A DNA stretch of 64,000 nucleotides from Methylotenera sp. (GTDB taxonomy: Bacteria; Pseudomonadota; Gammaproteobacteria; Burkholderiales; Methylophilaceae). The position numbers and the translations under genes are program-made. The stretch spans positions 1 to 64,000 of the forward strand of contig NZ_JAQSCU010000010.1 of assembly GCF_029945535.1 (NCBI RefSeq), given 5' to 3'. Under the pieces are notes generated by a model that ran no database searches, was not told the origin of the DNA, and saw only the letters and a program-made list of their open reading frames with translations. This document shows positions 32,302 to 52,602 of this stretch, piece by piece (position 1 is the first letter of the stretch; the number at the start of each line of letters is the position of its first letter).

Positions 32302-33762
32302 TTAAGCTACCAACATATCCACAAAGGTATTCACGGCAGTCGCTTCTAGCTTAGCCTGATCTAAGCATAAAGCCAAAATATCTGCCTGCTTTTTAGCATC
32401 AAAACGGCGCGCTAAATTCACTTGGAATTTTTTCACTAACTCTGGGATGCCTTGGCCGCGACGACGGCGGTGTCCGATTGGGTATTCCACAGCGATGTTG
32501 TCTGAGCTCGTGTGGTCTTTAAAGAACACTTGAATGGCGTTGGCGATTGAGCGTTTTTCTGGGTTTAGGTAATCAGCCGTGTAATCAGCTTTTTCTACAC
32601 ACACCATTTTTGCGCGAATTGCATCAATGCGTGGGTCTGCCGCGGCTGCGTCTTCGTAATCTTGCGCTGTTAAATTGCCTTTTAGCAAGCCAATGGCTGA
32701 CATGTATTGAATACAATGGTCACGATCGGCTGGGTTATCAAGTGGCCCCGTTTTGTCGATAATGCGAATGGCTGATTCGTGCGTAGTAATCACGATTTTA
32801 TCAATCTGCGCGATTTGATCTAAGGTTTGAATTTCTTTGCCAACTTGTGCATGTAGTTGAATTGCAGATTCCACCGCAGTTTGCGCATGGAATTCAGCTG
32901 GGAATGAGATTTTGAACAATACTTGCTCCATCACGTAAGAGCCGTAACCCCGTTGGAATTTGAAGGCGTTTCCTTTAAATAACACATCGTAGAATCCCCA
33001 TGTTGTAGCGGTTAATGCTGATGGGTAGCCCATTTCACCTTGCATAGTCATCCACGCTAATCGAACTGCACGGCTGGTTGCATCGCCTGCTGCCCATGAT
33101 TTACGTGAGCCTGTGTTTGGAGAGTGGCGGTAAGTACGTAAGCTTTGACCATCTACAAAAGCATTTGAAACGGCATTGATGATATCTTCTTTATTGCCAC
33201 CTAATAATTTAGTCACTACAGCAGTCGAGGCGATTTTGACTAAAATCACATGATCCAAACCTACGCGATTAAAGCTGTTTTCTAACGCTAATACGCCTTG
33301 AATTTCATGGGCTTTAATCATGGCCGTTAGCACGTCTTTAATGGTCAGTGCCTCTTTGCCTTCAGCTACATTTTTACGTGAAATGTAATCAGCAGTCGCT
33401 AAAATGCCGCCTAAGTTATCTGATGGGTGACCCCATTCAGCGGCTAACCATGTATCGTTAAAATCTAACCAGCGTATCATCGCGCCAATATTGAAAGCCG
33501 CTAAGATTGGGTCTAGTTGATAGTTTGTACCAGGCACTTTAGCGCCGTTTGGCACGACAGTGCCAGCAATGACTGGGCCTAGCAATTTGGTGCAAGCTGG
33601 GTAATCAAGCGCTTCAAAACCGCAACCTAGTGTATCCATTAAGCAGTTGCGTGCGGTGTCGAATGCTTCATCTGATTTGATTTCGTAATCCGCCACATAG
33701 TTGGCGATATCGACAATGACTTGGTCTGGAGCGGGACGTACGTTTGAGATGTGAGCTGACAT
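32302..33762 (-). CDS. prpD: 2-methylcitrate dehydratase
   Basis: MmgE/PrpD-family enzyme (486 residues) that dehydrates 2-methylcitrate to cis-2-methylaconitate in the methylcitrate cycle. The sequence is full length and shows [36 protein letters not shown] and [20 protein letters not shown], characteristic of PrpD. There is no acnD/prpF pair here, so the next step should be made by AcnB (50014). It is the last gene of the leftward cluster, separated from prpC by 144 bases that hold a palindromic repeat, so its expression may be lowered or partly uncoupled. Confidence 0.95.
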
Positions 33763-33822
33763 TGTTTAAGACCTTTTAAAATATATAAATTCTGAATCGT
33801 TAAATGATGTTGTTTCTTTTCA

Positions 33823-33891
33823 TCATTCCGTAACGACGGGAACCCAGTTAGGTTAATAAGCTGCCTAGATTCCCGCCTTCGCGGGAGTGAC
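33823..33891. repeat. Degenerate dRS3-like palindromic repeat
   Basis: The right half is ATTCCCGCCTTCGCGGGAGT preceded by GCTGCCTAG, the left half is a decayed CATTCCGTAACGACGGGAACC followed by CAGTTAGG. The same CAGTTAGG...GCTGCCTAG inner sequence occurs at 11832-11910, so both belong to one family. It lies between prpC and prpD inside an operon. Confidence 0.75.
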
Positions 33892-33906
33892 GTATGAAGG
33901 GTAGTT

Positions 33907-35082
33907 TTAGCGTTTATCTAAATGCACATAAGGACGATTATTTGGGCCAACGTACTCCGCATTCGGGCGAATGATTTTGTTATCAATACGTTGCTCAATC
34001 ACATGTGCAACCCAGCCAGTCGTGCGTGAAATCACAAAAATAGGCGTGAACATGCCAGTTGGAATGCCCATCATATGATAGCTTGATGCGCTGTACCAGT
34101 CTAAATTCGGGAACATTTTTTTCTCGCGCCACATCACTTCTTCAATACGTGCTGAAATCTCAAAAAGCGTCATATTGCCGGCATCTTCGCATAACTTGCG
34201 GCTAACGGCTTTGATTGACTCATTTCGTGGGTCTGCGATTGTGTAAACGGGATGACCAAAGCCGATAATGATTTCTTTTCGCGCCATGCGCTCTAAGATA
34301 TCTGTCTCTGCTTCATCGGCATTTTTATATCGTTCGATGATTTCCATCGCTGCTTCATTTGCACCGCCATGTTTCGCACCGCGTAAAGCGCCAATTGCAC
34401 CGGTGATGCATGAATACATGTCAGACAATGTGCCTGCAATCACACGTGCGGTGAATGTTGAGGCATTGAATTCATGCTCTGCGTATAGCACTAGCGAGGT
34501 ATTCATCGCGTCTATGTGTAATTGGCTTGGTGCTTTGCTATGCAGCACATGTAAAAAGTGTGCGGCAATGCTATTGTCGTCAGTTTCCAAATTCACACGC
34601 TTGCCGTTATGGCTAAAGTGATACCAATACAGCAAAATTGAACCAAAACATGAGATTAGTTTGTCGCCTAAATCTTGTGCGGCTTTGGTATTGCGGTCAG
34701 CCGCTTCAGGCTCTAATGTGCCCAGCATGGCGCAACCAGTGCGCATCACATCCATAGGATGCGTGTTTTTTGGAATTTGCTCCAGCACGGTCTTGAGCGC
34801 AGCAGGAATGTCGCGTAGCTTTTTAAGTTTAGCGTGATAAGCCGCGAGTTCAGTTTTATTCGGCAACTCACCATGAATCAATAGGTAAGCGACCTCTTCA
34901 AAAGTAGCGCTTTTAGCTAGTTCAATAATATCGTAACCGCGATAATGTAAATCGTTACCAGTATGCCCAACCGTACAAATCGCAGTGGTACCAGCAGAAA
35001 CACCTGCTAGTGCTACGCCTTTTTTCTTTTTAGGAGCATCGCTGCTCGCTGGTTGAATAGTGGTTTGAGTAGTTGCGTTCAT
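33907..35082 (-). CDS. prpC: 2-methylcitrate synthase
   Basis: Citrate-synthase-fold enzyme that condenses propionyl-CoA with oxaloacetate to 2-methylcitrate. From the ATG at 35082 it has 391 residues; a GGAG lies 9 bases upstream, and the earlier TTG at 35100 overlaps prpB and is unlikely. Catalytic blocks include [30 protein letters not shown] (His) and the final Asp region near [17 protein letters not shown]. The short length and [14 protein letters not shown]-terminus fit PrpC rather than GltA. It starts 14 bases after prpB. Confidence 0.95.
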
Positions 35083-35096
35083 GCTACTTTTCTCCT

Positions 35097-35984
35097 TCAA
35101 GCTTTGTTTTGATTAAATAGAGCATCTAACTTTTGCTCAAAAGCGTGGTAGCCCAAGTGGTCGTAAAGATCCATGCGGGTTTGCATGGTGCCGACTACAT
35201 TTTTTTGCGTACCGTCATTTTTCACCGCTTGGTAAACATTAAGCGCCGCTTGGTTCATCGCGCGGAAAGCTGAAAGTGGATATAGCACCATACTTACATC
35301 CGCCTCGCGTAGCTCATCAACCGTGAATAAAGGTGTGCTGCCGAATTCTGTAATATTGGCTAATACTGGCACTTTGACTGCCGCAGCAAATTGTTTGTAC
35401 ATGCTGAGTTCAGTAATTGCTTCTGGAAAAATCATGTCTGCGCCAGCTTCAGCGCAAGCGCAAGCGCGGTCTATGGCGGATTGCAAACCTTCTACGGCCA
35501 AAGCATCGGTGCGCGCCATGATGACAAAATCATCATAAGGTTTTGCATCTACCGCAGCTTTTACGCGATCTACCATTTCTTCTAAGCTGACAATGGCTTT
35601 GTTTGGGCGGTGACCACAGCGCTTTGCTGAAACTTGGTCTTCAATATGCACCGCAGCCGCTCCCGCTTTGGCTATGCTTTTTACACTGCGAGCGATGTTA
35701 AAAGCGCCACCCCAACCGGTATCAATATCCACTAGTAATGGTGTATCCACGGCATCGGTAATGCGGCGCACATCAATCAACACATCTTCTAAAGTTGAGA
35801 TGCCTAGATCGGGCAAGCCAAGTGAACCCGCTGCAACACCGCCACCAGATAAATAAATAGCTTTAAAGCCGCTTTGGGTGGCGAGCATGGCGTGGTAGGC
35901 GTTGATTGCGCCTATGATTTGTAGCGGTTTTTCGGCGCTTAGGGCGGCACGAAATCGTGCCCCTGCTGTGGCTGCTTGTGTCAT
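35097..35984 (-). CDS. prpB: 2-methylisocitrate lyase
   Basis: Cleaves 2-methylisocitrate to pyruvate and succinate, the last step of the methylcitrate cycle. The 295-residue protein belongs to the PEP mutase/isocitrate lyase superfamily; it shows [25 protein letters not shown] (Mg-binding Asp), the flexible catalytic loop KRCGH and IMARTDA. The KRCGH loop is shared with isocitrate lyase, but the length (about 295 against about 430) and neighbours identify PrpB. Cotranscribed with prpC and the lyase upstream. Confidence 0.96.
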
Positions 35985-36027: not shown

Positions 36028-37029
36028 TTAACTGAAGAAGGCCTGAGTTGCCTCAGCTGGAATCGCTACTTTGGTGAGTTTGGCTTTTTGTAAAATTTCC
36101 CAGAAATAACGATAAGTCGCTCTATCGTGAAGTTCGCCATCGTATTGAATCGGGCCCCAGTCTGCTTTTTGCGCAGCGAGTAGAATATTCGCGCCATCCT
36201 GTACTTCGTCGAAGTTAGGCTTCATGGCATCGACAATCGCTTCAATCTGCGTTGGGTAAATGCTCCACATACGTAAGAAGCCAAATTCGTTGCGTGCGCG
36301 TGAAGCGTCTGAATGCGTAGTTTCTACATTTTTCAGGTCTAAAGTCACGTTATGTGCTGGCACTACGCCGTTTGCCAGTGCTGCTGCCACTAACTCTGCT
36401 TTCGCTCGTGCCAATAATCGGTGATCAAACTGACCTGGACTGCGCATTGCGGAGGCTGGAATCGCGCCATGGTGGCCGCTAACAAAGTCCATTAAACCGA
36501 AGTCCAGTACTTGTACCCAAGGCAATGTCGCGATTTCATGCACGGCTTTTAATGCGCCGTGCGTTTCAATCAGGATATGCACTGGAATCAGACGCTCAAT
36601 GCCATTGAAAGTGGCTATTTTTTGAATGTATGCAATCATCTCGCTGGCTTGTGCGTAGCTTGTACATTTTGGAATGGTGATATAGCTTAAAACTTTGCCT
36701 GCACCCGCTACCAAAATATCCACATCTTGTTTCCAGTAGCTATTGGTATAGTCGTGAATACGCGAGCCAGCCATTTGATGTTTATTGGCGTCGCTTGTTA
36801 AAACGCGCACTATCATTTCTGCATGTTCGCGCTCTTGGCCAGCTTGTGCACCATCTTCGCAATCGCAAGTGATGTCGAATACTGGACCGACGGTATCTTG
36901 CATAGACAAGGCTTTGAGGATTAACTTTTCACTCCCAGCAAAATGCTCGCATGATGGAATGATAGGAAATGATTTTTCCCCGCCGAATAGAGCGTCTTTA
37001 GGGTGAACTAATTGTTGTGTGGTTGCCAT
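36028..37029 (-). CDS. Malyl-CoA/beta-methylmalyl-CoA lyase-like enzyme (HpcH/CitE superfamily)
   Basis: A 333-residue CoA-ester lyase of the CitE-like TIM-barrel family. The Mg-site residues are in place: DCEDG (56-60), Glu155 in ILIETHG and Asp181 in DFGLMDFVSG. Its length and C-terminal tail (DGELHDRATYRYFWEIL) are closer to the Chloroflexus-type Mcl, which acts on malyl-, beta-methylmalyl- and citramalyl-CoA, than to the shorter Rhodobacter Mcl1. The neighbour mesaconyl-CoA hydratase makes beta-methylmalyl-CoA cleavage to propionyl-CoA and glyoxylate (or the reverse) the best guess; prpB and prpC downstream would then consume the propionyl-CoA. Exact substrate unproven. Confidence 0.8.
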   Translation of the reverse strand: MATTQQLVHPKDALFGGEKSFPIIPSCEHFAGSEKLILKALSMQDTVGPVFDITCDCEDGAQAGQEREHAEMIVRVLTSDANKHQMAGSRIHDYTNSYWKQDVDILVAGAGKVLSYITIPKCTSYAQASEMIAYIQKIATFNGIERLIPVHILIETHGALKAVHEIATLPWVQVLDFGLMDFVSGHHGAIPASAMRSPGQFDHRLLARAKAELVAAALANGVVPAHNVTLDLKNVETTHSDASRARNEFGFLRMWSIYPTQIEAIVDAMKPNFDEVQDGANILLAAQKADWGPIQYDGELHDRATYRYFWEILQKAKLTKVAIPAEATQAFFS

Positions 37030-37075: not shown

Positions 37076-38173
37076 TTAATTTGGTTTCCGTGGCATTAGC
37101 ACGGTGTAATCTAAATCTAACACTACGTTCGGGTGGTAAGTCTGTTTGCCGTCAGTGGTAATCTGTGCGCTTTCTAGTGCGTCAGCAGGCATGTTTTTTA
37201 CACCTACCATGCGCAATCTCAAGGCGCCAACATCGGTACGATTCGGAATATCCCACTTGTCTAATACTTCAGTCCAAGTGTAAATAGTGTCGTCACCAAA
37301 TGATGGGTTGCAATGCGTGCCACCATTAATCGCGACGATGCAAAGTGCATTCTCTAAGCCGTCATTTGACAGCGCTCTGCACAATGAAATGATGTGTCCG
37401 CCGTACATTAAGCGTCTGCCAAATGCAGTTTTCTTCATCATCAAGTCATCAAAATGTAAGCGCGCATTGTTCTGATATAGCTTAGTAGCAAGTGTGTGGT
37501 CGGTATCGCTAATTGTCATACCTGCTGGATGATTGATGCGCTCGCCAATCGCGTAGTCGTTCCATAAATACTGACCACCTGTGACTGCAGTATTGAATTT
37601 TCTGGCATCCAAAAAGTTAGGTACGCTTAGCTCTTCAGCTGGCACATAACTAGGCAAGTTTGGCACTACAGTTTCAGGGGCTGGTGCATCTAAGTTGTTT
37701 TTGTGCACCATCACCCAGCGCACCCATGAAAGCACAGGTTGTTGTAATTGGTTGATGGACACTGAGCGCACATAAACGACGCCAGACTTGGCATTAGAAT
37801 TTTGTTTCAAGCCAATCACCGTTGAAGTGGTGCTGAGCGTATCGCCAATATGTACCGGTTGTAAAAAGCGCACGTCTGCATAACCTAGGTTGGCAACGGC
37901 ATTCACAGAAATATCAGGTACGGTTTTACCGAATGCAATATGAAAGGCTAATAAATCATCTACAGGTCTAGCGTTGTAGCCTAATGATTGAGCAACCGTA
38001 TCAGCTGAATGCAGTACTTGGCGTGCGCCTGTGAGTGCGATGTATAGCGCCATTTCACCTTCAGCAATCGTGCGTGGCGTAGCATGATGAATCACTTGGT
38101 TGAGGTGAAAATCCTCAAAAAAGTTGCCCGCATTGATTTTACTTGTAGTCATTTTATTAGTGGTATTAGACAT
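37076..38173 (-). CDS. mch: Mesaconyl-CoA hydratase (beta-methylmalyl-CoA dehydratase)
   Basis: Double hot-dog MaoC-family protein (365 residues) that reversibly hydrates mesaconyl-C1-CoA to beta-methylmalyl-CoA. The stretch DDLLAFHIAFGKTVPDIS (72-89) followed by NAVANLGYADVRFL, plus VIGLKQNSNAKSGVVYVRS and YGGHIISLCRALS, agrees closely with the Rhodobacter/Methylobacterium enzyme (about 340-350 residues) as I remember it. It overlaps the upstream CitE-like gene by 8 bases and lies 46 bases before the lyase. In its best known setting this enzyme belongs to the ethylmalonyl-CoA pathway; here the front half of that pathway is absent from the window. Confidence 0.88.
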   Translation of the reverse strand: MSNTTNKMTTSKINAGNFFEDFHLNQVIHHATPRTIAEGEMALYIALTGARQVLHSADTVAQSLGYNARPVDDLLAFHIAFGKTVPDISVNAVANLGYADVRFLQPVHIGDTLSTTSTVIGLKQNSNAKSGVVYVRSVSINQLQQPVLSWVRWVMVHKNNLDAPAPETVVPNLPSYVPAEELSVPNFLDARKFNTAVTGGQYLWNDYAIGERINHPAGMTISDTDHTLATKLYQNNARLHFDDLMMKKTAFGRRLMYGGHIISLCRALSNDGLENALCIVAINGGTHCNPSFGDDTIYTWTEVLDKWDIPNRTDVGALRLRMVGVKNMPADALESAQITTDGKQTYHPNVVLDLDYTVLMPRKPN

Positions 38174-39047
38174 GGCTTTCTTCCAAAGTCTTAATCATTT
38201 CGTTGAGTTTTAATAGTCGCTCAGCGGCTCTCACGTGGTGGCGTTCAACGAGTTTATCGTTTACTACAACTGTACCTTTGCCTTGTTCATTAGCTTCTTT
38301 TAACGCGGCGATGATTTCGCGCGCGTGCGTTACTTCTGAGGTTTGGGGTGTGTAGGCATCGTTGCTGTAGGCAAGTTGTGCAGGGTGTACTAATGATTTT
38401 CCGTCAAAACCCATATCGCGACCTAAGCGGCATGCATATTCAAAAGAATGCATATTTTTGAAGTCGCTGGTGATGCCGTCCACCACTGCGTGGCCATAAG
38501 CGCGAGCAGCTAAAATCACTAATGAAAGTGAAGTTAAAATCGCTGAGCGTTCGTGAGTAACACGCGCATGTAGCTGTGAAATTAAGTCAGATGTCGCCAT
38601 CACAATGCACACAATGCGGTCAGATGCGGCAGCAATTTCTTTTGCGTTTAACACCGCAATCGGACTTTCTATCATTACCATAATAGGTAAGTGGCTACCG
38701 CCAGCAGCATCAAGTAATGAAAGCGCGGTTAATACATCTTCGCGAGATTCGATATTTGGAAATAAAACAGCATCCACTTTGGTTTTTGCAATGGCTTTAA
38801 TATCGTCTGGGCCCCATTCTGAAATAAGATCATTCACACGCACGACTACTTCACGTGAGCCATAACCGCCTTCATTGACAAAGCGAACCACGTTGTCGCG
38901 TGACTCTTCTTTGCGCTCAACTAATATCGGGTCACCCAAATCCAGTATGACTGAATCGGCATGTAACGTCCGCGCACGCTCAAGGTAGTGCGTATTGCAG
39001 CCTGGTACGTAAAGCATAGAGCGCCTAGGGCGAAAATATTGAGCCAT
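38166..39047 (-). CDS. CitE-like CoA-ester lyase paralogue with altered DLED motif
   Basis: From the ATG at 39047 (AAGG just upstream) this is a 293-residue CitE-superfamily protein; the longer frame from 39116 would run into the promoter and is rejected. The fold signature is clear: RRSMLYVPGCN, the substrate Arg70 in VVRVND, Glu127 in MIESP, Asp154 in ATSDL and the tail GFDGKSLVHPAQL. The usual DLED near residue 37 reads DLGDP, so the Glu is replaced by Gly; whether it still cleaves CoA esters is uncertain. It opens the leftward cluster and stands divergent from gntR. Similar CitE-like genes sit near TCA genes in other betaproteobacteria, as far as I recall. Confidence 0.8.
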   Translation of the reverse strand: MAQYFRPRRSMLYVPGCNTHYLERARTLHADSVILDLGDPILVERKEESRDNVVRFVNEGGYGSREVVVRVNDLISEWGPDDIKAIAKTKVDAVLFPNIESREDVLTALSLLDAAGGSHLPIMVMIESPIAVLNAKEIAAASDRIVCIVMATSDLISQLHARVTHERSAILTSLSLVILAARAYGHAVVDGITSDFKNMHSFEYACRLGRDMGFDGKSLVHPAQLAYSNDAYTPQTSEVTHAREIIAALKEANEQGKGTVVVNDKLVERHHVRAAERLLKLNEMIKTLEESHV

Positions 39048-39086
39048 TTTGTTACCTTTAGTTTTCATTGTTTTAAAGCTATGCCG

Positions 39087-39116
39087 ATTATATAGAGAGA
39101 AAATAAAAAATGTCAA
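39087..39116 (-). promoter_or_regulatory. Consensus sigma70 promoter of the leftward prp/mch cluster
   Basis: On the minus strand a perfect TTGACA (39116-39111) and a perfect TATAAT (39092-39087) are separated by 18 bases, about 40 bases upstream of the CitE-like ATG. It is the strongest promoter match seen in the window and so probably needs a repressor; the dyad at 39119-39145 abuts the -35 box. Confidence 0.85.
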
Positions 39117-39118
39117 TA

Positions 39119-39145
39119 TATATCTTATGTCTTATATAAGATATA
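39119..39145. promoter_or_regulatory. Operator-like dyad in the gntR divergent region
   Basis: TATATCTTAT (39119-39128) and ATAAGATATA (39136-39145) are perfect arms separated by 7 bases. Nested inside is the 12-base palindrome TCTTATATAAGA (39130-39141). It sits just upstream of the -35 of the leftward promoter and before the gntR gene. Binding by the GntR/UTRA protein is the natural inference. Confidence 0.7.
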
Positions 39146-39262: not shown

Positions 39263-40000
39263 ATGATAGATAAACACTACAATTCGCCAAGCTATAAACC
39301 TTTATATGATCAGATTAAAGTGTTGCTTACGCAAAGCTTAATCGGTGGTGAATGGCGCCCAGGTGACATGATTCCTAGCGAAATTGAATTGGCGGGCCGC
39401 TATAAGGTGAGTCAAGGCACAGTAAGAAAAGCCATTGATGCATTGGCTACTGAAAATATCCTTATTCGTCGCCAAGGCAAGGGTACTTTTGTAGCAACGC
39501 ACAGCGCAGAAGGTATGAAGTTGCGCTTTTTAAGGCTGACTTCGCAAGATGGGCAAAAAGAGTTGCTGCAAAACGAGTTTATTTCTTGTACCAAAGGCAA
39601 AGCTGACGTGCGCATGGGGCAAATTCTTGACTTGAAAGCAGGCGCGTCGACTATAGAGATAAAACGCTTACTTACATTTTCAGGCAGACCGTTGATTTTT
39701 GATCACATTATCGTGCCCGCAGCGCCATTTAAAGGCTTGAATGGTACGCGTGTTGAAGAAAATAATGGTTCGATGTATAGCATGTATGAGTCAGAGTTTG
39801 GCGTACGCATGATACGTGCTGAAGAGCGCCTGAAAGCGGTAGGGGCTAAAGGTGAGGTGGCAAAAGCTTTAGGTTTAAAAGAAGGCGAACCAATCCTTAG
39901 TATAGAGCGTGTTTCATTTACTTACGGCGATAAGCCTATGGAATGGCGTTTGGGGCTATGCGTAACAGATAATCATCACTACATGAACGAGCTTGAGTAG
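39263..40000 (+). CDS. GntR-family regulator with UTRA domain (HutC subfamily)
   Basis: A 245-residue repressor: an N-terminal GntR winged helix (about 10-75; PSEIELAGRYKVSQGTVRKAIDAL, then RQGKGTFV) and a C-terminal UTRA ligand domain (about 95-240) ending in MEWRLGLCVTDNHHY. UTRA domains bind small metabolites. It lies exactly between the leftward methylcitrate/mesaconyl-CoA genes and the rightward malic enzyme/sdh genes, so it probably controls both. A C4- or C5-dicarboxylate, methylcitrate or an acyl-CoA ester is a reasonable ligand guess but nothing in the sequence decides it. Confidence 0.92.
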   Translation: MIDKHYNSPSYKPLYDQIKVLLTQSLIGGEWRPGDMIPSEIELAGRYKVSQGTVRKAIDALATENILIRRQGKGTFVATHSAEGMKLRFLRLTSQDGQKELLQNEFISCTKGKADVRMGQILDLKAGASTIEIKRLLTFSGRPLIFDHIIVPAAPFKGLNGTRVEENNGSMYSMYESEFGVRMIRAEERLKAVGAKGEVAKALGLKEGEPILSIERVSFTYGDKPMEWRLGLCVTDNHHYMNELE

Positions 40001-40090
40001 TGCATTTTGTGCTTTTGAGAATGGATTTTGAAAAGCACGTAGCAAACAGAGATATTAAAAAACATAAACCCTGAAAAGGTATTGAGAATA

Positions 40091-41299
40091 ATGGACGATC
40101 TGAAAAAACGCGCACTTGATTATCACGAGTTTCCAAAGCCAGGAAAGCTCTCTGTAGAGTCATCCAAGCCATGTGCTACTCAAGATGATTTATCTTTGGC
40201 TTATACGCCAGGTGTGGCTGTGCCAGTGCGTGAAATTAACCGTGATCCTGCATTAGCTTATAAATATACTAATAAAGGTAATTTAGTCGCGGTGATTACT
40301 GATGGTACTGCGGTGTTGGGTTTAGGTAATATGGGCCCATTAGCAAGTAAGCCAGTGATGGAGGGCAAAGCGGTCTTGTTTAAGCATTTTGCTGGTATCG
40401 ACGTGTTCGATATTGAAGTTAACGCGCCAACTATCGAGGCTTTTATAGAAACAGTGGTGAATATTGCGCCTACTTTTGGCGGTATTAACCTTGAAGATAT
40501 TGCTGCACCGCACTGCTTTAGAATTGAAAAAGAGCTGCGTGCCCGTTTAGATATACCAGTTTTTCATGATGATCAGCACGGAACTGCGGTGATTGTAGCC
40601 GCAGCCTTATCGAATGCACTGGAGCTACAAGGTAAAACATTACCAACTGCAAAAATCGTATTTCTAGGCGCGGGTGCAGCAGGCTGTTCTTGTGCGCGCC
40701 TACTTAAATTAATGGGCGCAACTAATATTACGATGGTGGATAAGTCGGGTGTTTTGGATACATCACGTGTTGATTTGCATGACAATAATCGCCATTTAGC
40801 AGTTGCACCAAGTGCAGCAAAAACGTTGGCAGATGTGATGCCGAATGCTGATGTGTTTATTGGCGTTTCCGCAGCCAATGCCCTATCGCCAGAATTGCTT
40901 AAATTAATGGCGCCAAAACCAGTGGTATTTGCATTGGCAAACCCAGACCCGGAAATTCTACCTAGCTTAGCACACTCGGTTCGTGATGATATTTTAATGG
41001 CGACTGGTCGTTCAGACTTTCCGAATCAAGTGAACAATGCGCTGTGCTTCCCATATTTGTTCCGTGGTGCTTTGGATGCAAAAGCCAAGCAAATTACCGA
41101 TGAAATGCAAATTGCCGCCGCACGCGCTTTGGCTGCGTTAGCTAGAGAGCCTGTGCCAGAAGATGTGTTAGCGGCTTACAACTTAACAAGCTTAAGTTTC
41201 GGCAAGGATTACATTATTCCAAAACCATTCGATAAACGCTTGTTATCAAGCGTATCTGGTGCCGTTGCAGATGCTGCGCGCCTACAACAAGCTAAATAA
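40091..41299 (+). CDS. Malic enzyme, short form (oxidative decarboxylation of malate)
   Basis: A 402-residue malic enzyme with the two normal domains but without the phosphotransacetylase-like C-terminal domain of MaeB. Visible blocks are LAYTPGVAVPVREI, FKHFAGIDVFDIEV, INLEDIAAPHCF, DDQHGTAV and the nucleotide fold FLGAGAAGCSCARLL. An Asp follows the second beta strand (MVDKSG), which favours NAD+ over NADP+; this is an inference. The ATG at 40091 is used; a TTG three codons earlier is possible. In this cluster it would turn malate from succinate oxidation into pyruvate, and it occupies a spot where other betaproteobacteria often have malate dehydrogenase. Confidence 0.92.
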   Translation: MDDLKKRALDYHEFPKPGKLSVESSKPCATQDDLSLAYTPGVAVPVREINRDPALAYKYTNKGNLVAVITDGTAVLGLGNMGPLASKPVMEGKAVLFKHFAGIDVFDIEVNAPTIEAFIETVVNIAPTFGGINLEDIAAPHCFRIEKELRARLDIPVFHDDQHGTAVIVAAALSNALELQGKTLPTAKIVFLGAGAAGCSCARLLKLMGATNITMVDKSGVLDTSRVDLHDNNRHLAVAPSAAKTLADVMPNADVFIGVSAANALSPELLKLMAPKPVVFALANPDPEILPSLAHSVRDDILMATGRSDFPNQVNNALCFPYLFRGALDAKAKQITDEMQIAAARALAALAREPVPEDVLAAYNLTSLSFGKDYIIPKPFDKRLLSSVSGAVADAARLQQAK

Positions 41300-41329
41300 G
41301 CACAACAAGCTCAATTAAGAATCTTGAAT

Positions 41330-42106: not shown

Positions 42107-42180
42107 TAACAACTAGCTTAGTCTAAGCGTTATTAATTTAAAGAATTGCATATTTAAAATTTACTGAAGGTTAATTGGTT

Positions 42181-44740: not shown

Positions 44741-45031
44741 ATGACTGACGCTAACGGTATGACAGATGAAGAGGTACGTCGCCTTAGTTGGCGTTGTCGC
44801 CGAGGCTTGCTAGAGCTAGATATTGTATTGCAGCGTTTTTCTGAGAAGCACCTTGCAACACTCACGAAACCAGAGTTGTTAGCGTTTGATAGCTTATTAG
44901 ATTTGCCAGATAACGAGTTTTTAGATGTAGTGACCTCAAGAATAAAGTTTGCAGAAGTGAAAGTATTAAACGACAAGCAGTTAGATGCAGACGCACTGAA
45001 AACAGTGCTGACCAAATTAAGCGGTCATTAA
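44741..45031 (+). CDS. sdhE: FAD assembly factor SdhE
   Basis: A small (96-residue) SdhE/YgfY-family protein that helps attach FAD covalently to SdhA. The family motif RGxxE is present (Arg21, Gly22, Glu25 in RRGLLELD), followed by the typical helix LLDLPDNEFLDVV. A second ATG at 44759 (MTDEEVRR) is possible. In many betaproteobacteria gltA follows; here a CitE-like gene takes that place. Confidence 0.93.
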   Translation: MTDANGMTDEEVRRLSWRCRRGLLELDIVLQRFSEKHLATLTKPELLAFDSLLDLPDNEFLDVVTSRIKFAEVKVLNDKQLDADALKTVLTKLSGH

Positions 45032-45073: not shown

Positions 45074-46201
45074 ATGAATAGTCCTGGAAAAATAAAGTGT
45101 TATACAAATAGCAATATGCTTGGCGAGAATTGGCCTGGAATACAACTTTACTATCCGCCTGTGAAGTATTCGCCAGCGCAGGGCATTTACGAAGATGTCA
45201 CGCAAGCTGCGGCGCGTATGAAAAAACATGCACATCATACCAATGCGCATACTTTGATTTTTGACTTGGAAGATGGCTGTCGTCAAAAAGAGATGAGTCG
45301 TGATCTATTGCGTCAAGAGCTGCCTGAGCTTCGTAAAGTCAACCCGAGCGTCACTATTGCCATTCGATCAAACTCATTCCGTACCGATGAATACGAGCTG
45401 GATATGCAGCTTGTTAGCGATATGTCTGATTGCATCGACGTTGTGATGCTTGCCAAGGCTGGGGAGGCTTATGGCGCGGCTGAAGTGCGTGATTTATCTA
45501 GCTTGTTACTCGAGCTGAATCCAAATATTACGATACAGCCGATTATCGAGCATCCGAAGTCATTGAAAATTGCTCCGGAACTGATGCAGTACAGCACGGT
45601 AAAGCACGTCGTGTTTGGTATTCATGACTTTTCAAAAGCGATGGGCATACACATCACGCCAGAACACTGGATTGAAGAGTTGCAGTTCTATATGAACCAA
45701 CTGATGTTTGAAGCACGTATTGCGGGTAAAGGCGTGATTGGCGGCGTTGAAACCTTGATCGGTTCTAATATCATGCCTGAAAAATTTGTCGAGCCGCATG
45801 ATGTTCGCCGCTGGTTGGATTTGCATGGCGATTATGAGTCACGCGTTGTCTATAAACATGCTTGCCAAGAGGCTGCGATGGGCTTAACGGGTAAACAAGT
45901 GATACACCCAGGCCATATTCATTTATGTAAAACCGCTTATACACCATCACCCACTGAAGTGAACCAAAAGGTACGTATCTTGAAAGCGGCAATTGAAGCA
46001 GATGCCTTGCACGGCGGCGCGATTAAGTTTGAAGGTGAAATGTTAGATCCACCTATGTTTGGTAAAGCACTACAAACTTTATTGAGAGCACACGCTTTAC
46101 GCGCGCTAAACCAAGACGATATGGATTTCGCCTTACAAGTGCTGGAGTTGTTGCCAGCACAGGTGATACGCCAAAACTGGCCGTATGGCGTTCTACTATA
46201 A
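45074..46201 (+). CDS. CitE/HpcH-like CoA-ester lyase, long form
   Basis: A 375-residue member of the CitE-like superfamily, longer than usual because of an about 30-residue N-terminal extension and a C-terminal helical tail. Active-site blocks are kept: DLEDG (64-68), the Arg in AIRSNSFRTDE, Glu in IIEHPKSL and Asp in FGIHDFSKAMG, plus the tail GLTGKQVIHPGHI. It is the third CitE-type gene in the island. It sits at the position gltA often has after sdhE, and just before an acyl-CoA synthetase, so cleavage or formation of a dicarboxyl-hydroxyacyl-CoA (malyl-, citramalyl- or methylmalyl-CoA) is likely. The precise substrate cannot be read from the sequence. Confidence 0.8.
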   Translation: MNSPGKIKCYTNSNMLGENWPGIQLYYPPVKYSPAQGIYEDVTQAAARMKKHAHHTNAHTLIFDLEDGCRQKEMSRDLLRQELPELRKVNPSVTIAIRSNSFRTDEYELDMQLVSDMSDCIDVVMLAKAGEAYGAAEVRDLSSLLLELNPNITIQPIIEHPKSLKIAPELMQYSTVKHVVFGIHDFSKAMGIHITPEHWIEELQFYMNQLMFEARIAGKGVIGGVETLIGSNIMPEKFVEPHDVRRWLDLHGDYESRVVYKHACQEAAMGLTGKQVIHPGHIHLCKTAYTPSPTEVNQKVRILKAAIEADALHGGAIKFEGEMLDPPMFGKALQTLLRAHALRALNQDDMDFALQVLELLPAQVIRQNWPYGVLL

Positions 46202-46260: not shown

Positions 46261-47892
46261 ATGCAAAAACTAGAACAGTTTCCTGAGTGGAAATGGAGTG
46301 TTCCAAAACACTTTAATATTGGTGCGGCATGTACTGATAAGCATTTGAATACAGCAACGGCTTCTATGATTGCGATGATTGTAGAAGATGATGCACAAGG
46401 CACTTCACAAATCACTTTTGAGCAATTAGCTAAGCGTACCGATCAGTTTGCGCAGTTGCTTAGAAACTTGCATGTTGATGCAGGTGAGCGTGTGTTGATT
46501 CGCTTGCCGAACAGCTTGGACTACCCAACAGCCTTTTTAGGTGCAATGAAACGTGGTGCGATTTCAGTACCAACTTCAACGCTGCTCACCGCTGAAGAAG
46601 TCGCTTATTTGGCAAAAGATTCCGGCGCGGCAGTATTGGTGACAGACAAAGCTGCATGGCCTTCACTGCAAGGCCATCTCTCAGGTTTGCCTAATTTAAA
46701 GCATGTATTTTTGTCAGGCGTTGGTGAGGTTGCAGACCACCCAGCACTCAATGTGGTTGATTTAGATACGCAGCTTGCTGCGATTAAAGCGTGCGAACCA
46801 GCACGTTTAACCGCAGCGGATGACCCTGCTTATTTGGTGTACACATCAGGTACAACAGGTTACCCAAAAGGCGTGCTGCATGCGCATCGTGCCTTGATAG
46901 GTCGTGAACCAGCTTCTAAATACTGGTTCAATTTTGATGCAAACTCGCAAGACCGCATCATGCATTCAGGCAAGTTTAATTGGACTTATGTTTTAGGTTC
47001 CGGCTTGATGGATCCGCTCTATTTGGGCAAAACCGTCATCGTGCATGAAGGTAAAAATGACGCTGATTTATGGACGCGCTTGATTGCTAAACATTCCGCC
47101 ACGATTTTTGTTGGTGTGCCAACCATTTATCGCCAAATTATTCAGAAATCTACAGCTAAGCAAGCCGATGTACCAAGCTTGCGCCACTGCATGAGTGCGG
47201 GTGAGCATTTGTCGGATGAAGTGCTGCAACAATGGCGTGAGCGTTTTGGTGCGGATATTTATGAAGCGGTTGGCATGAGTGAGTTTTCATATTACTTAAG
47301 TCAAAGTATATTCCGTCCGATACGAGCGGGCTCAGCGGGCTTTCCACAACCTGGCCATGCGATTAAACTGCTGAACCCTGAAAATTTAGAAGAAGTTGCA
47401 CAAGGCGAAGAGGGCATGATTAGCGTGCCTGAAACAGACCCAGGTTTGTTCTTACGCTATTGGAATCTAGATGAAGAAACTGCAAAATACAAGCACGATG
47501 GCTGGTTCTTTTCAGGTGACTATGCTCGATATGATGAAGATGGTTATATCTGGTTCTTAGGCCGTAAAGATGACATCATTAAAAGCTTTGGTTATCGCGT
47601 ATCACCTTATGAAATCGAGCGTGTATATAAATCTCATCCAGCCGTGGCAGATTGCGCAGCGGTGGGTGAAGAGCTTGAAAAAGACAAGTTACTAGTGGTG
47701 ACTTATGTGATTCTGCAACCAAACTCAGCAGTCACTGCGGATGAGCTAATGGCTTTTGGTAAGCAGCATTTAGCCGCTTATAAAGCACCAAAAACGGTTT
47801 ACTTAACCAAAGATTTTCCGCGTACAAAAAATGGTAAGATTTTGCGCAAAGACATTAACAACAAAATTGCATATGCAAAATCAGCCAGATAG
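46261..47892 (+). CDS. Acyl-CoA synthetase (ANL superfamily, AMP-forming)
   Basis: A 543-residue adenylate-forming ligase. It shows the phosphate loop YTSGTTGYPKGVLH, the A5 region IYEAVGMSEFSYYL, the hinge block GRKDDIIKSFGYRVSP and the catalytic lysine in RTKNGKILRK. It resembles the acetyl/benzoate-CoA-ligase-like branch, and is not the long Acs or PrpE type (about 630-650 residues). In context it could activate a carboxylic acid that enters the CitE/mesaconyl-CoA reactions, for example propionate, mesaconate or citramalate; this is inference. It lies 59 bases after the CitE-like gene and 15 before fumarase. Confidence 0.85.
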   Translation: MQKLEQFPEWKWSVPKHFNIGAACTDKHLNTATASMIAMIVEDDAQGTSQITFEQLAKRTDQFAQLLRNLHVDAGERVLIRLPNSLDYPTAFLGAMKRGAISVPTSTLLTAEEVAYLAKDSGAAVLVTDKAAWPSLQGHLSGLPNLKHVFLSGVGEVADHPALNVVDLDTQLAAIKACEPARLTAADDPAYLVYTSGTTGYPKGVLHAHRALIGREPASKYWFNFDANSQDRIMHSGKFNWTYVLGSGLMDPLYLGKTVIVHEGKNDADLWTRLIAKHSATIFVGVPTIYRQIIQKSTAKQADVPSLRHCMSAGEHLSDEVLQQWRERFGADIYEAVGMSEFSYYLSQSIFRPIRAGSAGFPQPGHAIKLLNPENLEEVAQGEEGMISVPETDPGLFLRYWNLDEETAKYKHDGWFFSGDYARYDEDGYIWFLGRKDDIIKSFGYRVSPYEIERVYKSHPAVADCAAVGEELEKDKLLVVTYVILQPNSAVTADELMAFGKQHLAAYKAPKTVYLTKDFPRTKNGKILRKDINNKIAYAKSAR

Positions 47893-47907
47893 AGATAGTA
47901 GATCAAC

Positions 47908-49449
47908 ATGACAACGATACGCCAAGAGGATTTTATTCAAAGCATTGCCGATGCGCTGCAATATATATCTTACTACCACCCATTAGATTATATTCAGGCA
48001 TTGGGTCGCGCTTATGAGGCGGAGCAATCTCCCGCCGCTAAAGATGCGATTGCGCAGATTTTAACCAACTCGCGTATGTGTGCAGAAGGCAAGCGACCAA
48101 TATGCCAAGATACTGGCATTGTTGTTGCTTTCGTTAAAGTAGGCATGAATGTGCAGTGGGATGCGGAGTTGGATATTGAGCAAATGGTGAATGAAGGCGT
48201 GCATCGCGCTTACTTGCTACGAGAGAATAAATTACGTGCTTCTATAGTGAGCGACCCCGCTGGAAAGCGCGCCAATACTAAAGATAACACGCCAGCTGTG
48301 GTGCATGTTTCATTGGTGGCGGGTGATAAGGTAGATGTGCAAATTGCTGCAAAAGGTGGTGGTTCTGAGAATAAAGCCAAGCTCGCCATGCTGAACCCGA
48401 ATGACAGCATAGTCGATTGGATTTTAGAGGTCGTGCCCCAAATGGGTGCGGGCTGGTGCCCACCGGGTATGCTGGGCATTGGAATAGGCGGTAGTGCAGA
48501 AAAAGCGATGCTGTTGGCGAAAGAGTCTTTGATGGCGCCGATTGATATGCACGAATTGAAGGCCAAAGGCGAGAATAAAGAAAAGCTCAATAGGATAGAA
48601 GAGTTACGTTTAGAAATTTTTGAAAAGGTGAATAATTTAGGAATAGGCGCACAAGGTCTAGGTGGCTTGGCAACGGTGTTGGATGTGAAGATTTTAGACT
48701 ACCCAACTCACGCCGCTTCGTTACCCGTGGCAATTATCCCTAACTGTGCCGCCACACGTCATGTACATTTTGAGTTAAATGGTAGTGGCGTAGCTGAATT
48801 AGAAGCGCCTAACTTGAGTGATTGGCCTGACGTACACTGGGTACCAAGTGAAGCTTCGCTAAGAGTGAATTTAGATACTATTACTCAAACAGATATTCAA
48901 ACTTGGAAACCAGGACAGACATTATTGTTGAATGGGAAATTGCTTACAGGCCGAGATGCAGCGCATAAGCGGATTGCAACGATGTTGGCTAAAGGTGAAA
49001 AACTGCCTGTAGATTTTAAAAATCGTTTCATTTATTACGTAGGCCCTGTTGATGCTGTACGTGATGAAGCGGTAGGACCCGCTGGACCAACTACTGCAAC
49101 GCGTATGGATAGTTTTACTGAAATGATGTTAAGCGACGTTGGCCTACTAGGCATGGTCGGCAAAGCTGAACGTGGCGATGAAACTATCGCTTCTATCGCA
49201 AAGCATAAGTCTGTGTACTTAACTGCGGTAGGCGGTGCGGCTTATTTGGTGAGTAAAGCCATTAAAAAGGCTGAAGTGCTGGCGTTTGCAGATTTAGATA
49301 TGGAAGCGATTTATGAGTTCACAGTGCAGGATATGCCTGTGACGGTAGCGGTAGATAGCAAAGGTAATTCAGTACACACTACTGGCCCAGCCGAGTGGAA
49401 AGAAAAAATTGCGCAGCATAAGACGATAGAAATTCACTCTGTGCCGTAG
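47908..49449 (+). CDS. Class I fumarate hydratase, iron-sulfur type
   Basis: A 513-residue oxygen-sensitive [4Fe-4S] hydro-lyase. The alpha domain (about 1-290) has RPICQDTGIVVAFV, GGGSENKAK and GAGWCPPGMLGIGIGG, and the beta domain has YYVGPVDAVRDEAVGPAGPT and FTVQDMPVTVAVD; the three cluster cysteines fall in ICQDTG, GWCPPG and PNCAATRH. It converts fumarate to malate after Sdh. Class I fumarases can also hydrate mesaconate to citramalate, and the mesaconyl-CoA genes nearby make that activity worth considering. It starts 15 bases after the synthetase. Confidence 0.95.
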   Translation: MTTIRQEDFIQSIADALQYISYYHPLDYIQALGRAYEAEQSPAAKDAIAQILTNSRMCAEGKRPICQDTGIVVAFVKVGMNVQWDAELDIEQMVNEGVHRAYLLRENKLRASIVSDPAGKRANTKDNTPAVVHVSLVAGDKVDVQIAAKGGGSENKAKLAMLNPNDSIVDWILEVVPQMGAGWCPPGMLGIGIGGSAEKAMLLAKESLMAPIDMHELKAKGENKEKLNRIEELRLEIFEKVNNLGIGAQGLGGLATVLDVKILDYPTHAASLPVAIIPNCAATRHVHFELNGSGVAELEAPNLSDWPDVHWVPSEASLRVNLDTITQTDIQTWKPGQTLLLNGKLLTGRDAAHKRIATMLAKGEKLPVDFKNRFIYYVGPVDAVRDEAVGPAGPTTATRMDSFTEMMLSDVGLLGMVGKAERGDETIASIAKHKSVYLTAVGGAAYLVSKAIKKAEVLAFADLDMEAIYEFTVQDMPVTVAVDSKGNSVHTTGPAEWKEKIAQHKTIEIHSVP

Positions 49450-49551
49450 CTTCTGTGCTTGAAACGTATGTGCCTTGGGTCACAGTTAAGCTGCACTATT
49501 TGCGTTAATATCTGTCAGAATTGATGATAGATATTTGAGAGAGCAGATAAA

Positions 49552-49875
49552 ATGCTAAAACTTTTGTTACGAAGTGCTTTTTTGCTTGGTTTGGCTATGA
49601 ATATATCCATCGCAAGCGCAGATGATGTACTGATTTATTTAGTCGACAGCGATGACGGCTATTCTGGCCCAACTGTAGAAGATAATATTGCAGCCATGGA
49701 TACTGATAAAAACGGTTTTGCTGACGTCACTGAGGTCCGTGCATTTTTAGCACTGAAAAATGGATCTGAATATGAAAAAGAGATTCTAGATAGGTGGCAA
49801 TTGCGTAGCCAAGGTAAAAGTTGCACGCTGCCCCCAGATGACAAATTATTTAATCAAACGAACGCTATTAACTAA
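49552..49875 (+). CDS. Small exported EF-hand protein
   Basis: A 107-residue protein with a signal peptide (about 1-23, ending IASA) and one canonical EF-hand calcium loop, DTDKNGFADVTE (50-61), followed by a helix VRAFLAL. The C-terminus holds a single Cys91. It should be periplasmic and may bind calcium. It lies between fumarase and acnB; spacing of about 100 bases on the left and 138 on the right suggests its own promoter. I do not recognise a named family and propose no further function. Confidence 0.78.
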   Translation: MLKLLLRSAFLLGLAMNISIASADDVLIYLVDSDDGYSGPTVEDNIAAMDTDKNGFADVTEVRAFLALKNGSEYEKEILDRWQLRSQGKSCTLPPDDKLFNQTNAIN

Positions 49876-50013
49876 ACTAACTGGCTTAATTTTGAAGTTT
49901 TACAAATGTGAAATTTTTGATGATTTAGGCTGGTTTATAATTTAACCCTATTGATATAACTATCGTTTTAAAACAGCATTTTTAAACAGTCACTATTTAT
50001 TAAAAGAGCCACT

Positions 50014-52602
50014 ATGTTAAAAGCCTATCAAGCCCATGTTGCAGAGCGCAGCGCTATTCAACTTCCGCCATTACCATTGTCAGCTGAGCAAGTTGCGCAA
50101 GTTGTTGAGCTACTTAAAGCCCCACCTGCAGGTGAAGCTGAGACATTACTTGATTTAATTGCCAATCGCACACCCGCGGGCGTGGATCAAGCTGCTTATG
50201 TGAAAGCCGCTTTTCTTGCAGATATTGCCAAAGGCATCGCTAAATCACCAATAATTTCACCAGAAAAAGCGGTGGAGTTATTAGGCACTATGCTTGGCGG
50301 CTACAACGTACAGGCTTTAGTTGCTTTACTCGAGACGCCGATGGCTGCGCATGCAGTAAAAGCTTTAAGTAGCACGATTTTGATGTTCGATGCATTCCAT
50401 GATGTAGATGTATTAATGAAAGCTGGTAATGCTCACGCTAAAAAGCTGATAGAAAGCTGGGCGAATGCCGAGTGGTTTACTAACGCGCCAGTATTGGCTA
50501 AAGAAATCAAAATGGTCGTATTCAAAGTGGATGGTGAAACTAATACCGACGATTTAAGCCCTGCGCAAGATGCATGGAGCCGCCCAGATATTCCATTGCA
50601 TGCTAAAGCCATGCTGATTAATAAAATGCCTGATGGTTTGAAACTGATTGATACCTTGAAACAAAAAGGTTTGCCGTTGGCTTATGTGGGCGATGTAGTG
50701 GGTACCGGCTCTTCACGTAAATCTGCGATTAACTCAGTGCAGTGGTTTATGGGTAATGATATTCCTAACATCCCAAACAAACGCACGGGTGGCGTGATTC
50801 TAGGTGCTAAAATTGCACCTATTTTCTTTAACACAGCGGAAGACTCCGGCGCATTGCCGATTCAATGTGATGTGTCCAAGTTGAATATGGGCGATGTGAT
50901 TGTGATCAAGCCATATGAAGGCAAAGTGCTTAATGAAGCGGGCGATGTGCTTTCTACTTTTGAATTAAACCCAGTGACCATGCCAGATGAAGTGCGCGCT
51001 GGTGGCCGTATTCCATTGATTATCGGTCGTGGTTTAACTTCAAATGCGCGCAAAGCGTTAGGTTTGCCAGAAACTACCGTATTCATTAAAGCTGCGCCAG
51101 CTGTCAGCTCAACAAAAGGTTATACGCTTGCACAAAAAATGGTAGGTCGTGCATGCGGTTTGCCAGAAGGCGTTGGCGTACGTCCCAATACTTATTGCGA
51201 GCCAAAAGCCACAACGGTCGGTTCACAAGATACTACGGGGGGTATGACGCGCGATGAGTTGAAAGAATTGGCTTGTTTAGGTTTTAGCTCTGACTTGGTC
51301 ATGCAAAGCTTCTGCCACACAGCAGCCTACCCAAAACCAGTGGATATTAAATTGCAACATAGCTTGCCAGAATTTATGTCTAGCCGTGGCGGTGTTTCAT
51401 TGCGCCCAGGTGATGGTGTGATTCACTCATGGTTAAACCGCTTAATCTTGCCAGATACCGTAGGCACAGGCGGTGACTCACATACACGCTTCCCGATTGG
51501 TATTTCATTCCCAGCAGGTTCTGGTTTGGTGGCGTTTGCTGCCGCGACAGGTGCGATGCCTTTAGATATGCCAGAGTCAGTATTAGTGCGCTTTAAGGGC
51601 ACAATGCAGCCTGGTATTACTTTGCGTGACTTGGTGAATGCGATTCCATATGCCGCCATTCAAGAAGGTAATTTAACCGTTGGTAAAACAGGTAAAAAGA
51701 ACGTATTTAACGGACGTATTTTAGAAATTGAAGGTTTGCCAGATTTAAAAGTAGAGCAAGCTTTTGAGTTTGCCGATGCTTCAGCTGAGCGTTCAGCAAA
51801 TGGCTGTACGGTCTTATTGAACAAAGAGCCAGTGATTGAGTTCTTAAATTCAAATATCGTATTGATGCAAAACATGATTGAAAATGGTTACGAAGATGCA
51901 CGCACTTTGCAACGCCGTATTGAAAATATGCAAGCATGGTTAGCTAAACCTGAGTTGCTAACACCAGATGCAGATGCCGAGTACGCACACGTGATTGAAA
52001 TCGATTTAAACGAAATCAAAGAGCCGCTAGTGGCTTGCCCGAACGATCCAGATGACATTAAACCGTTATCAGCAGTGGTTGGCGATAAGATTGATGAAGT
52101 GTTTATCGGTAGTTGTATGACTAATATTGGTCATTACCGCGCTGCGGCTAAAGTGTTAGAAGGCTCAGGCAGCATTCCAACACGTTTATGGATTGCTCCA
52201 CCAACACGCATGGATGAAGCGCAGTTGCGCGATGAAGGTGTGTATTCAACCTTCGGCGTAGCGGGTGCGCGTACGGAGATTCCAGGTTGTTCATTATGTA
52301 TGGGTAATCAGGCACGCGTGGCGGATAAAGCGACGGTGTTCTCAACCAGCACACGTAACTTTGATAACCGCATGGGTAAAGATGCGCGTGTTTATTTGGG
52401 CTCAGCTGAGTTGGCGGCAGTGTGCGCTAAGCTCGGTCGTATGCCATCACATGCTGAATATTTGGAAACTGTGGGTAATAAATTGGCCAACACTGCGGAA
52501 ATTTACAAATATCTAAATTTCGACCAAATGACTGAGTATAAAGCGGCTTTGGATACCTTAAGTTCAGGTAAAAAAGTGATTCCAATCGCAGAAGTGGTTT
52601 AG
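50014..52602 (+). CDS. acnB: Aconitate hydratase B / 2-methylisocitrate dehydratase
   Basis: An 862-residue AcnB-type enzyme (swivel domain first), which isomerises citrate and, in organisms lacking AcnD, hydrates cis-2-methylaconitate to 2-methylisocitrate. Blocks include [37 protein letters not shown] and the cluster cysteines in IGSCMTN and CSLCMGN. It supplies the one step of the methylcitrate cycle not encoded in the leftward cluster. A TATAAT box lies at 49936-49941, so it may have its own promoter. A strong terminator follows, marking the end of the island. Confidence 0.96.

Follow-up and report, generated by a model that had tools for sequence, protein, structure and literature searches.

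The closest described counterpart of the locus treated here is a gene cluster of the Methylophilaceae, which has been listed as 'Methylcitric acid cycle genes (prpCBD, cyl1, maoC, cyl2, gntR, mdh, sdhABCD, cyl3, prpE, fum, can)' in every column of the respective table, together with the statements that oxo-ketoglutarate dehydrogenase genes are lacking and that the clusters are strongly conserved in structure (PMC4109929). The cluster has been found to be highly expressed under semi-in situ lake conditions, with the metabolite processed called unknown (PMC3728764), and has been read as serving propionate oxidation in Methylotenera, Methylophilus, 'Ca. M. turicensis' and OM43 (PMC6794327). In marine OM43, methylcitrate-cycle transcripts rise with dissolved organic matter, the values for NB46_00665 (putative HpcH/HpaI aldolase/citrate lyase) and NB46_00666 (CoA ligase) increasing from 101 and 104 to 1,055 and 1,045 (PMC5120137); from name and adjacency, we infer that these two genes are cyl3 and acs. 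The same genes, in the same family, make up an island at positions 32302-52602 of a 64,000-nucleotide stretch of Methylotenera sp. DNA (contig NZ_JAQSCU010000010.1, the whole stretch being called the window), which derives from a genome of 3.0 Mb that is 99.99% complete. While the cluster is known already, its chemical reading presented here is partly new: the terms 'mesaconyl' and 'malyl' are absent from the texts of PMC3728764, PMC4109929, PMC6794327, PMC5120137 and PMC11978286, and no mesaconyl-CoA reading of the cluster has been found in print in one open-access library, a scope outside which Erb 2010, Kalyuzhnaya 2010 and Lapidus 2011 lie. We lean, tentatively, towards the island being one GntR-controlled regulon that takes mesaconyl-C1-CoA apart, so that its enzymes probably split a five-carbon acid and burn the pieces via a detour round the usual energy cycle of a methanol-using, freshwater host. 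Compared with the published cluster, maoC is placed as mesaconyl-C1-CoA hydratase (mch), and cyl1, cyl2 and cyl3, encoding the proteins CitE-1, CitE-2 and CitE-3, are given separate proposed roles; the listed 'mdh' has malic-enzyme domains, and the listed 'prpE' (acs) reaches no cut-off among the models listed.

Several pathways outside this cluster share parts of the proposed chemistry. Rhodobacter sphaeroides and Methylorubrum have, in the lower half of their ethylmalonyl-CoA pathway, Mch and a CitE-like protein carrying Glu in its lid in common with the island, and in Ruegeria the gene of a related CoA ester lyase is found together with sdh and a MaoC gene; unlike in that pathway, Ccr above cut-off is missing among 100 genomes of the island's family and the lyase belongs to another CitE branch. 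The island would correspond to this lower half, except that methylcitrate takes the place of methylmalonyl-CoA. The citramalate cycle suggested for Rhodospirillum rubrum (PMC8307300) shares a mesaconase-capable class of fumarase, mesaconyl-CoA hydratase and a proposed methylmalyl-CoA lyase, and its outputs are glyoxylate and propionyl-CoA, as proposed for the island, which in contrast has an acyl-CoA synthetase instead of a CoA-transferase and the methylcitrate instead of the methylmalonyl-CoA branch; proposed in 1997, this cycle still needed proof according to a paper of 2015 (PMC4682846). Mch and CitE-type lyases also recur in the second loop of the 3-hydroxypropionate bi-cycle of Chloroflexus, whereas the genome studied here lacks an Mct-family transferase, and its CitE-like proteins are three separate ones where the bi-cycle has a single tri-functional lyase. 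Finally, the haloarchaeal methylaspartate cycle shares mesaconyl-CoA hydratase and methylmalyl-CoA cleavage, but methylaspartase (methylaspartate ammonia-lyase) has not been found above cut-off in any of the 100 family genomes (51 weak matches; 11 of 14 control genomes matched, two over cut-off).

All genes that a preliminary description of this DNA had named have been found, in the order and orientation it had given: to the left of the GntR gene CitE-2, mch, CitE-1, prpB, prpC and prpD, and to its right malic enzyme, sdhCDABE, CitE-3, acyl-CoA synthetase, class I fumarase, a small open reading frame (ORF) and acnB. Its enzyme calls are likewise borne out by family cut-offs, domain matches and structure matches. 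The two-domain MaoC protein encoded by mch (37076..38173, minus strand) is 93% identical to that of Methylotenera metagenome-assembled genomes (MAGs), which places the host in Methylotenera, within the Methylophilaceae. Its top solved match is PDB entry 4e3e, presumably the Chloroflexus enzyme (E 1.5e-129, identity 202/349), and the beta-methylmalyl-CoA dehydratase of M. extorquens (8hgn) is matched with E 2.1e-110 and an identity of 176/346. The substrate-site residues given for the M. extorquens enzyme are F71, S79, N85, K113, R142, N226, H231, Y248 and G249 (PMC10164722), and the window protein is identical at all 9 of the 9 positions checked. By its sequence the protein resembles mesaconyl-C1-CoA hydratase (Mch/MeaC), which supports the link to mesaconyl-CoA/methylmalyl-CoA chemistry drawn beforehand.

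Of 80 related loci, 78 have mch followed by CitE-1 without a change of strand; in the remaining two (L064 and L079) CitE-1 is near mch but on the opposite strand. In all 61 loci that show both, acs and cyl3 adjoin; the arrangement is therefore not due to chance. Across the order, a sample of 150 genomes contains 41 with a MaoC match and 10 with a true Mch (E <1e-100); eight of these ten encode a CitE-1 at least 72% identical within at most 72 bases of mch, and the other two, G029 and G075, lack a CitE-1 match, which 47 genomes have. The other 39 of these 47 carry homologues of at most 67% identity and no true Mch, and hence the CitE-1 branch has other roles too. As a separate observation, plasmid p2 of Cupriavidus pinatubonensis has a CitE-1 homologue (66%) beside pyruvate carboxylase and no MaoC gene annotated in the stretch shown (L090), so that the branch may have another role there. 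In Cupriavidus oxalaticus the mch/CitE-1 pair lies beside genes for a CoA-transferase, an MmgE/PrpD protein, an acyl-CoA dehydrogenase and a tricarboxylate-transporter protein, and in Sphingobium beside alpha-methylacyl-CoA racemase; because of such neighbours the pair looks to be used on external acids in both. The divergences of 12 island genes have been compared pairwise in 39 rows (the window and the 38 loci with all 12 genes, other loci being excluded), and among the 66 gene pairs the mch-acs link has been found to be the strongest once the common trend is removed (partial r 0.69; 0.67 unscaled). The metagenome-assembled contig L060 has mch and acs of the other of two types, with the nearest neighbours of cyl1 and prpC also in that other type, together with gntR, cyl2, cyl3, sdhA, sdhB, prpB and prpD of the window's type, which suggests a mosaic island formed by recombination or a strain mixture in the MAG. 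Co-divergence and L060 weakly suggest that the synthetase makes the substrate of Mch.

Within the family, 100 related Methylophilaceae genomes of 48-100% completeness, the own genome included, have been surveyed, whose counts are not independent (Mch at E of at most 1e-50, prpB by NCBIfam cut-off). Mch occurs in 59, prpB in 58, both in 58 and prpB alone in none; the single genome with Mch and no prpB, G207, is 76% complete. At least three CitE-like matches are present in 58 of the 59 Mch genomes and in none of the 41 without Mch, three of which have a single one; in the own genome there are four. In the Methylophilaceae the island is thus gained or lost as a whole. A strict tie of succinate dehydrogenase (SDH) to the island has been considered and rejected, as SdhA passes its cut-off not only in 57 of 59 Mch genomes but also in 8 of 41 Mch-less ones. 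At the level of loci, prp genes are shown in 57 of 80 and not in 23, for several of which the contig ends. Thirteen loci labelled Gallionellaceae, Gallionellales, Gallionella, Sideroxydans, Sideroxyarcus or Nitrosomonadales (L024, L026-L032, L035, L036, L039, L040, L043) have acs-cyl3-gntR divergent from cyl2-mch-cyl1 and no prpBCD or sdh within the stretch examined, to which the judgement of adjacency is confined and which extends at least 5 kb beyond mch in 9 of the 13; L028, L035 and L040 show a malic-enzyme match of 53-54% further out. Two loci labelled Methylophaga (L037, L042) and one of a gammaproteobacterium (L046) have malic enzyme and prp without sdh within the stretch examined, and rearranged sets with a CitE-2 of only 39-57% identity are found in L062 and L065 (labelled bacterium and Thiobacillus) and in L064 and L079 (Chromatiales, Sedimenticola). 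GC-rich loci, in which gene calls are poor, have been used for core genes only. The island is also carried by L076, a MAG labelled 'Candidatus Methylopumilus universalis', a label that may be wrong; according to PMC6794327, methylcitrate genes are absent from all 'Ca. Methylopumilus' strains of that study.

The three CitE-like proteins, judged by their sequences, are not equivalent. All pass Pfam PF03328, and none reaches an NCBIfam cut-off. Their residues have been compared with the set described for the superfamily, namely an Arg, a Glu-Asp pair, a metal-binding Glu and Asp, and a lid Asp (PMC3832036), in alignments of 78 (CitE-1), 62 (CitE-3) and 55 rows (CitE-2) from which rows below 80% of the window protein's length are excluded. 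In CitE-1 (36028..37029, minus strand), Arg, the Glu-Asp pair and the metal ligands are invariant in the 78 rows, and the lid Asp is present in all 76 that reach it, two rows ending before the lid; with its position after mch, we propose it as a beta-methylmalyl-CoA lyase. In CitE-3 (45074..46201, plus strand; PF03328 42.5 bits, cut-off 25) all catalytic residues including the lid Asp are invariant in 62 rows, with the Arg unread in one, and we propose a malyl-CoA or citramalyl-CoA lyase. CitE-2 (38166..39116, minus strand) departs from the lyase set, as its lid residue is Glu in 53 of 55 rows and Gln in the other two; Glu in place of the lid Asp is the mark of the malyl-CoA thioesterase (Mcl2) group of R. 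sphaeroides (PMC3832036), and CitE-2 is proposed to be a protein of this type. It is 40.6% identical to a CoA ester lyase of Ruegeria TM1040, which has the lid Glu too, but an intact Glu-Asp pair, and whose gene is placed between mdh and a MaoC-sdhCDAB stretch. The start listed for CitE-2, TTG 39116, appears from the sequence to be the TTG of a -35 box, so that ATG 39047 is the likelier one. Among solved structures CitE-1 and CitE-3 have no characterised close relative; those nearest to CitE-1, 3qqw and 3r4i, are of unknown function. Structure models with mean pLDDT of 70 (CitE-2) and 61 (CitE-3) have given malyl-CoA lyases as top Foldseek matches of CitE-2 and (S)-citramalyl-CoA lyase as that of CitE-3, at a TM (template modelling) value of about 0.4; these model matches are too weak, and therefore no substrates are assigned from them.

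A common control of the two arms is suggested by their intergenic region. The GntR/UTRA (HutC-type) regulator (39263..40000, plus strand; PF00392 72 bits, PF07702 93 bits) and cyl2 diverge, and between them, just upstream of the cyl2 -35 box TTGACA, lies the 23-bp palindromic element TATCTTATATAAGACATAAGATA (39121..39143, minus strand). It is exact (23/23) in 44 of 67 such divergent regions (the window and 66 loci) and matches at 16 or more of 23 positions in all 67, where the best score by chance in two unrelated stretches is 15; in the 64-kb window it has one match at up to 3 mismatches, with 0 expected. Its inner part, TCTTATATAAGA, is exact in 67 of 91 loci, and L037, L042 and L053 have two copies. 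The element has been kept in front of the cyl2-mch operon across Methylophilaceae, Gallionellaceae-type and Methylophaga-labelled loci and looks like a GntR operator. The regulator gene itself is among the most over-expressed genes of the cluster (PMC3728764).

One may postulate the following route. The AMP-forming acyl-CoA synthetase (acs, 46261..47892, plus strand; PF00501, PF13193), a proposed mesaconate--CoA ligase, would charge mesaconate to mesaconyl-CoA, which Mch would convert into beta-methylmalyl-CoA and CitE-1 would split into propionyl-CoA and glyoxylate. PrpC, PrpD, AcnB and PrpB would then turn propionyl-CoA and oxaloacetate into pyruvate and succinate. All four are above their curated cut-offs: 2-methylcitrate dehydratase (prpD, 32302..33762, minus strand; NCBIfam TIGR02330 849 bits, cut-off 458), 2-methylcitrate synthase (prpC, 33907..35100, minus strand; NF009006 673 bits, cut-off 550), methylisocitrate lyase (prpB, 35097..35984, minus strand; TIGR02317 428 bits, cut-off 354) and aconitase/2-methylisocitrate dehydratase (acnB, 50014..52602, plus strand; TIGR00117 1483 bits, cut-off 1287). 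A second citrate synthase is encoded elsewhere in the host genome (C4:42732-43832). Succinate would pass through SDH and fumarase to malate and through malic enzyme to pyruvate. The corresponding genes, all on the plus strand, are sdhC (41324..41755; TIGR02970 122 bits, cut-off 52), sdhD (41762..42106; TIGR02968 89 bits, cut-off 42), sdhA (42175..43956; TIGR01816 947 bits, cut-off 727), sdhB (43995..44735; subfamily model PRK05950 361 bits, cut-off 228) and sdhE, the flavinator of SDH (44741..45031; Sdh5 PF03937 68 bits, cut-off 27), which is shorter than the ORF listing limit of 100 aa; further the class I (Fe-S) fumarase, a possible mesaconase (47908..49449; PF05681, PF05683, with TIGR00722 and TIGR00723 over cut-off), and a malic enzyme of 405 aa (40082..41299; PF00390, PF03949, with PRK12861 matched at positions 4-401 of 764, below cut-off). 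For glyoxylate, CitE-3 may join it with acetyl-CoA, and CitE-2 may hydrolyse the malyl-CoA to malate, replacing malate synthase. Malyl-CoA hydrolysis in place of malate synthase reportedly takes place in Rhodobacter sphaeroides, to judge by the title of Erb 2010. The reactions would be drawn towards cleavage by a thioesterase and by PrpC, whose synthase reaction is irreversible. Mesaconate itself might be taken up or be made from acetyl-CoA and pyruvate via citramalate.

The absence of other routes agrees with such a detour. The E1 component of 2-oxoglutarate dehydrogenase has no match in any of the 100 family genomes, the own genome included, at 7 of 14 matching controls, and malate synthase none in the 100 at 6 of 14. 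The preliminary description had assumed that C5 acids or propionyl-CoA are oxidised without a classical tricarboxylic acid cycle; the missing E1 in the own genome and its relatives upholds the absence of the classical oxidative cycle, and C5 acids may be taken up, though no transporter is found among the island genes. A full ethylmalonyl-CoA pathway elsewhere, which it had named as another explanation of these enzymes, has been sought through Ccr, and none is above cut-off in the 100 genomes, own included, at 83 weak matches (controls: 13 of 14 match, one over cut-off).

Besides the missing transporter, several observations weigh against a regulon that takes mesaconyl-C1-CoA apart. In 51 of 55 rows of CitE-2, Gly stands for the first Glu of the pair, a residue otherwise kept throughout the superfamily, and the metal-binding Glu and Asp are each missing in 3 of 55; some species may thus have a CitE-2 without catalytic activity. 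Before the metal Asp, two groups of malyl-CoA lyases invariably have Ala (haloarchaeal ones Val), which is said to make space for the propionyl group (PMC3832036); at this position Met is found in CitE-1 (78/78) and His in CitE-3 (62/62). The mch-acs link falls to second of the 66 pairs without L060, and to fifth and eleventh within subgroups of 12 and 27 rows. In the Gallionellaceae-type loci, the core without adjacent prp implies that propionyl-CoA would need another fate there. A serine pathway, lastly, is stated to be present in all Methylotenera genomes of PMC11978286, so that a malyl-CoA lyase would have another use.

A variant that we regard as rather unlikely makes the island a genetically complete citramalate cycle joined to methylcitrate. 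In it, CitE-3 would condense acetyl-CoA and pyruvate to citramalyl-CoA, CitE-2 would hydrolyse it, and the class I fumarase would dehydrate citramalate to mesaconate, from which synthetase, Mch and CitE-1 would lead to propionyl-CoA and glyoxylate, with PrpCDB and AcnB returning pyruvate and making succinate. The net conversion would be acetyl-CoA + oxaloacetate to glyoxylate + succinate with pyruvate as carrier, a result equal to that of citrate synthase and isocitrate lyase. Candidates for the specific steps are present in the island (CitE-3, CitE-2, fumarase and synthetase), although sequence alone does not tell their specificity. Hydration of mesaconate is described for the class I fumarases of E. 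coli and Burkholderia xenovorans (PMC4682846), and the reverse mesaconase reaction has been taken as possible in a review (PMC8307300). Citramalyl-CoA synthesis has been described only with pyruvate in large excess (PMC3832036), which counts against the variant unless a thioesterase pulls.

Malyl-CoA lyase reactions are stated to be reversible (PMC3832036). It appears unlikely to us that the island works in the condensing direction, like loop two of the 3-hydroxypropionate bi-cycle, and salvages glyoxylate or propionyl-CoA: CitE-1 would condense these two, Mch would dehydrate the product to mesaconyl-CoA, to be released as mesaconate, fumarase would form citramalate, the synthetase would recharge it, and CitE-3 would yield acetyl-CoA and pyruvate. 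The strict adjacency of cyl3 and acs and the mesaconate hydration by the class I fumarases mentioned above fit this order of steps. The core without adjacent prp in the Gallionellaceae-type loci, whose carriers we take to be autotrophs, would suit glyoxylate salvage. Against it stand the ATP cost at the synthetase and the near-strict link of mch and prpB in the Methylophilaceae, by which propionyl-CoA looks like a product. Moreover, the family III CoA-transferase of the bi-cycle (mesaconyl-CoA C1:C4 transferase type) has no match in the own genome; a single one of the 100 family genomes shows it, in a fragment of 59 aa where a contig ends (5 of 14 controls match).

We give similarly little credence to an ordinary propionate-oxidation (methylcitrate) locus in which Mch and the CitE-like proteins would be side branches for CoA-ester overflow or repair. 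The cluster has been published as methylcitric acid cycle with its synthetase named prpE (PMC4109929, PMC6794327), but this synthetase is below the cut-off of every NCBIfam model among the 25 listed of 107 matched, and Mch, the three CitE-like proteins and the synthetase occur together without adjacent prp in the 13 Gallionellaceae-type loci. Substrates of Mch and the CitE-like proteins might, as another reading has it, be CoA esters that are not C5 compounds, with the link to mesaconate a mere resemblance; this would agree with the size-determining residue other than Ala and the lack of characterised close relatives of CitE-1 and CitE-3 among solved structures, but seems quite improbable given the 9 of 9 residues that Mch shares with the M. 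extorquens enzyme and the Mch/CitE-1 pair of Cupriavidus oxalaticus, which recurs there next to genes for a CoA-transferase and an acyl-CoA dehydrogenase.

Some further features of the window and its contig have been recorded. Between fumarase and acnB lies the small ORF (49552..49875, plus strand), which has no NCBIfam or Pfam match, shows by eye a single EF-hand-like loop and looks secreted; no role is proposed for it. Two plus-strand ORFs at the border by prpD, 30577-31617 and 31625-32248, are a possible defence gene pair; the former encodes a GmrSD N-terminal domain (74 bits, cut-off 33), and the latter lacks a Pfam match. A candidate isocitrate lyase of the own genome at C10:324672, its only sub-cut-off match of the prpB model, has been rejected, as the protein joins a nucleotidyltransferase domain to a phosphoenolpyruvate (PEP) mutase (TIGR02320 413 bits, cut-off 320) and its gene adjoins that of phosphonopyruvate decarboxylase. 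Around it (C10:322500-328000), the nucleotidyltransferase-PEP mutase fusion and the decarboxylase after it are both over NCBIfam cut-offs and an aminotransferase is weakly matched, which makes phosphonate biosynthesis on the same contig as the island probable.

If the island does take mesaconyl-CoA apart, widespread aquatic methylotrophs would own, besides C1 metabolism, another carbon route, and its entry compound would have a name. If the citramalate variant were true, the cycle proposed for R. rubrum would gain a gene cluster, and methylotrophs without 2-oxoglutarate dehydrogenase and malate synthase would be able to burn, or build from, acetyl-CoA.

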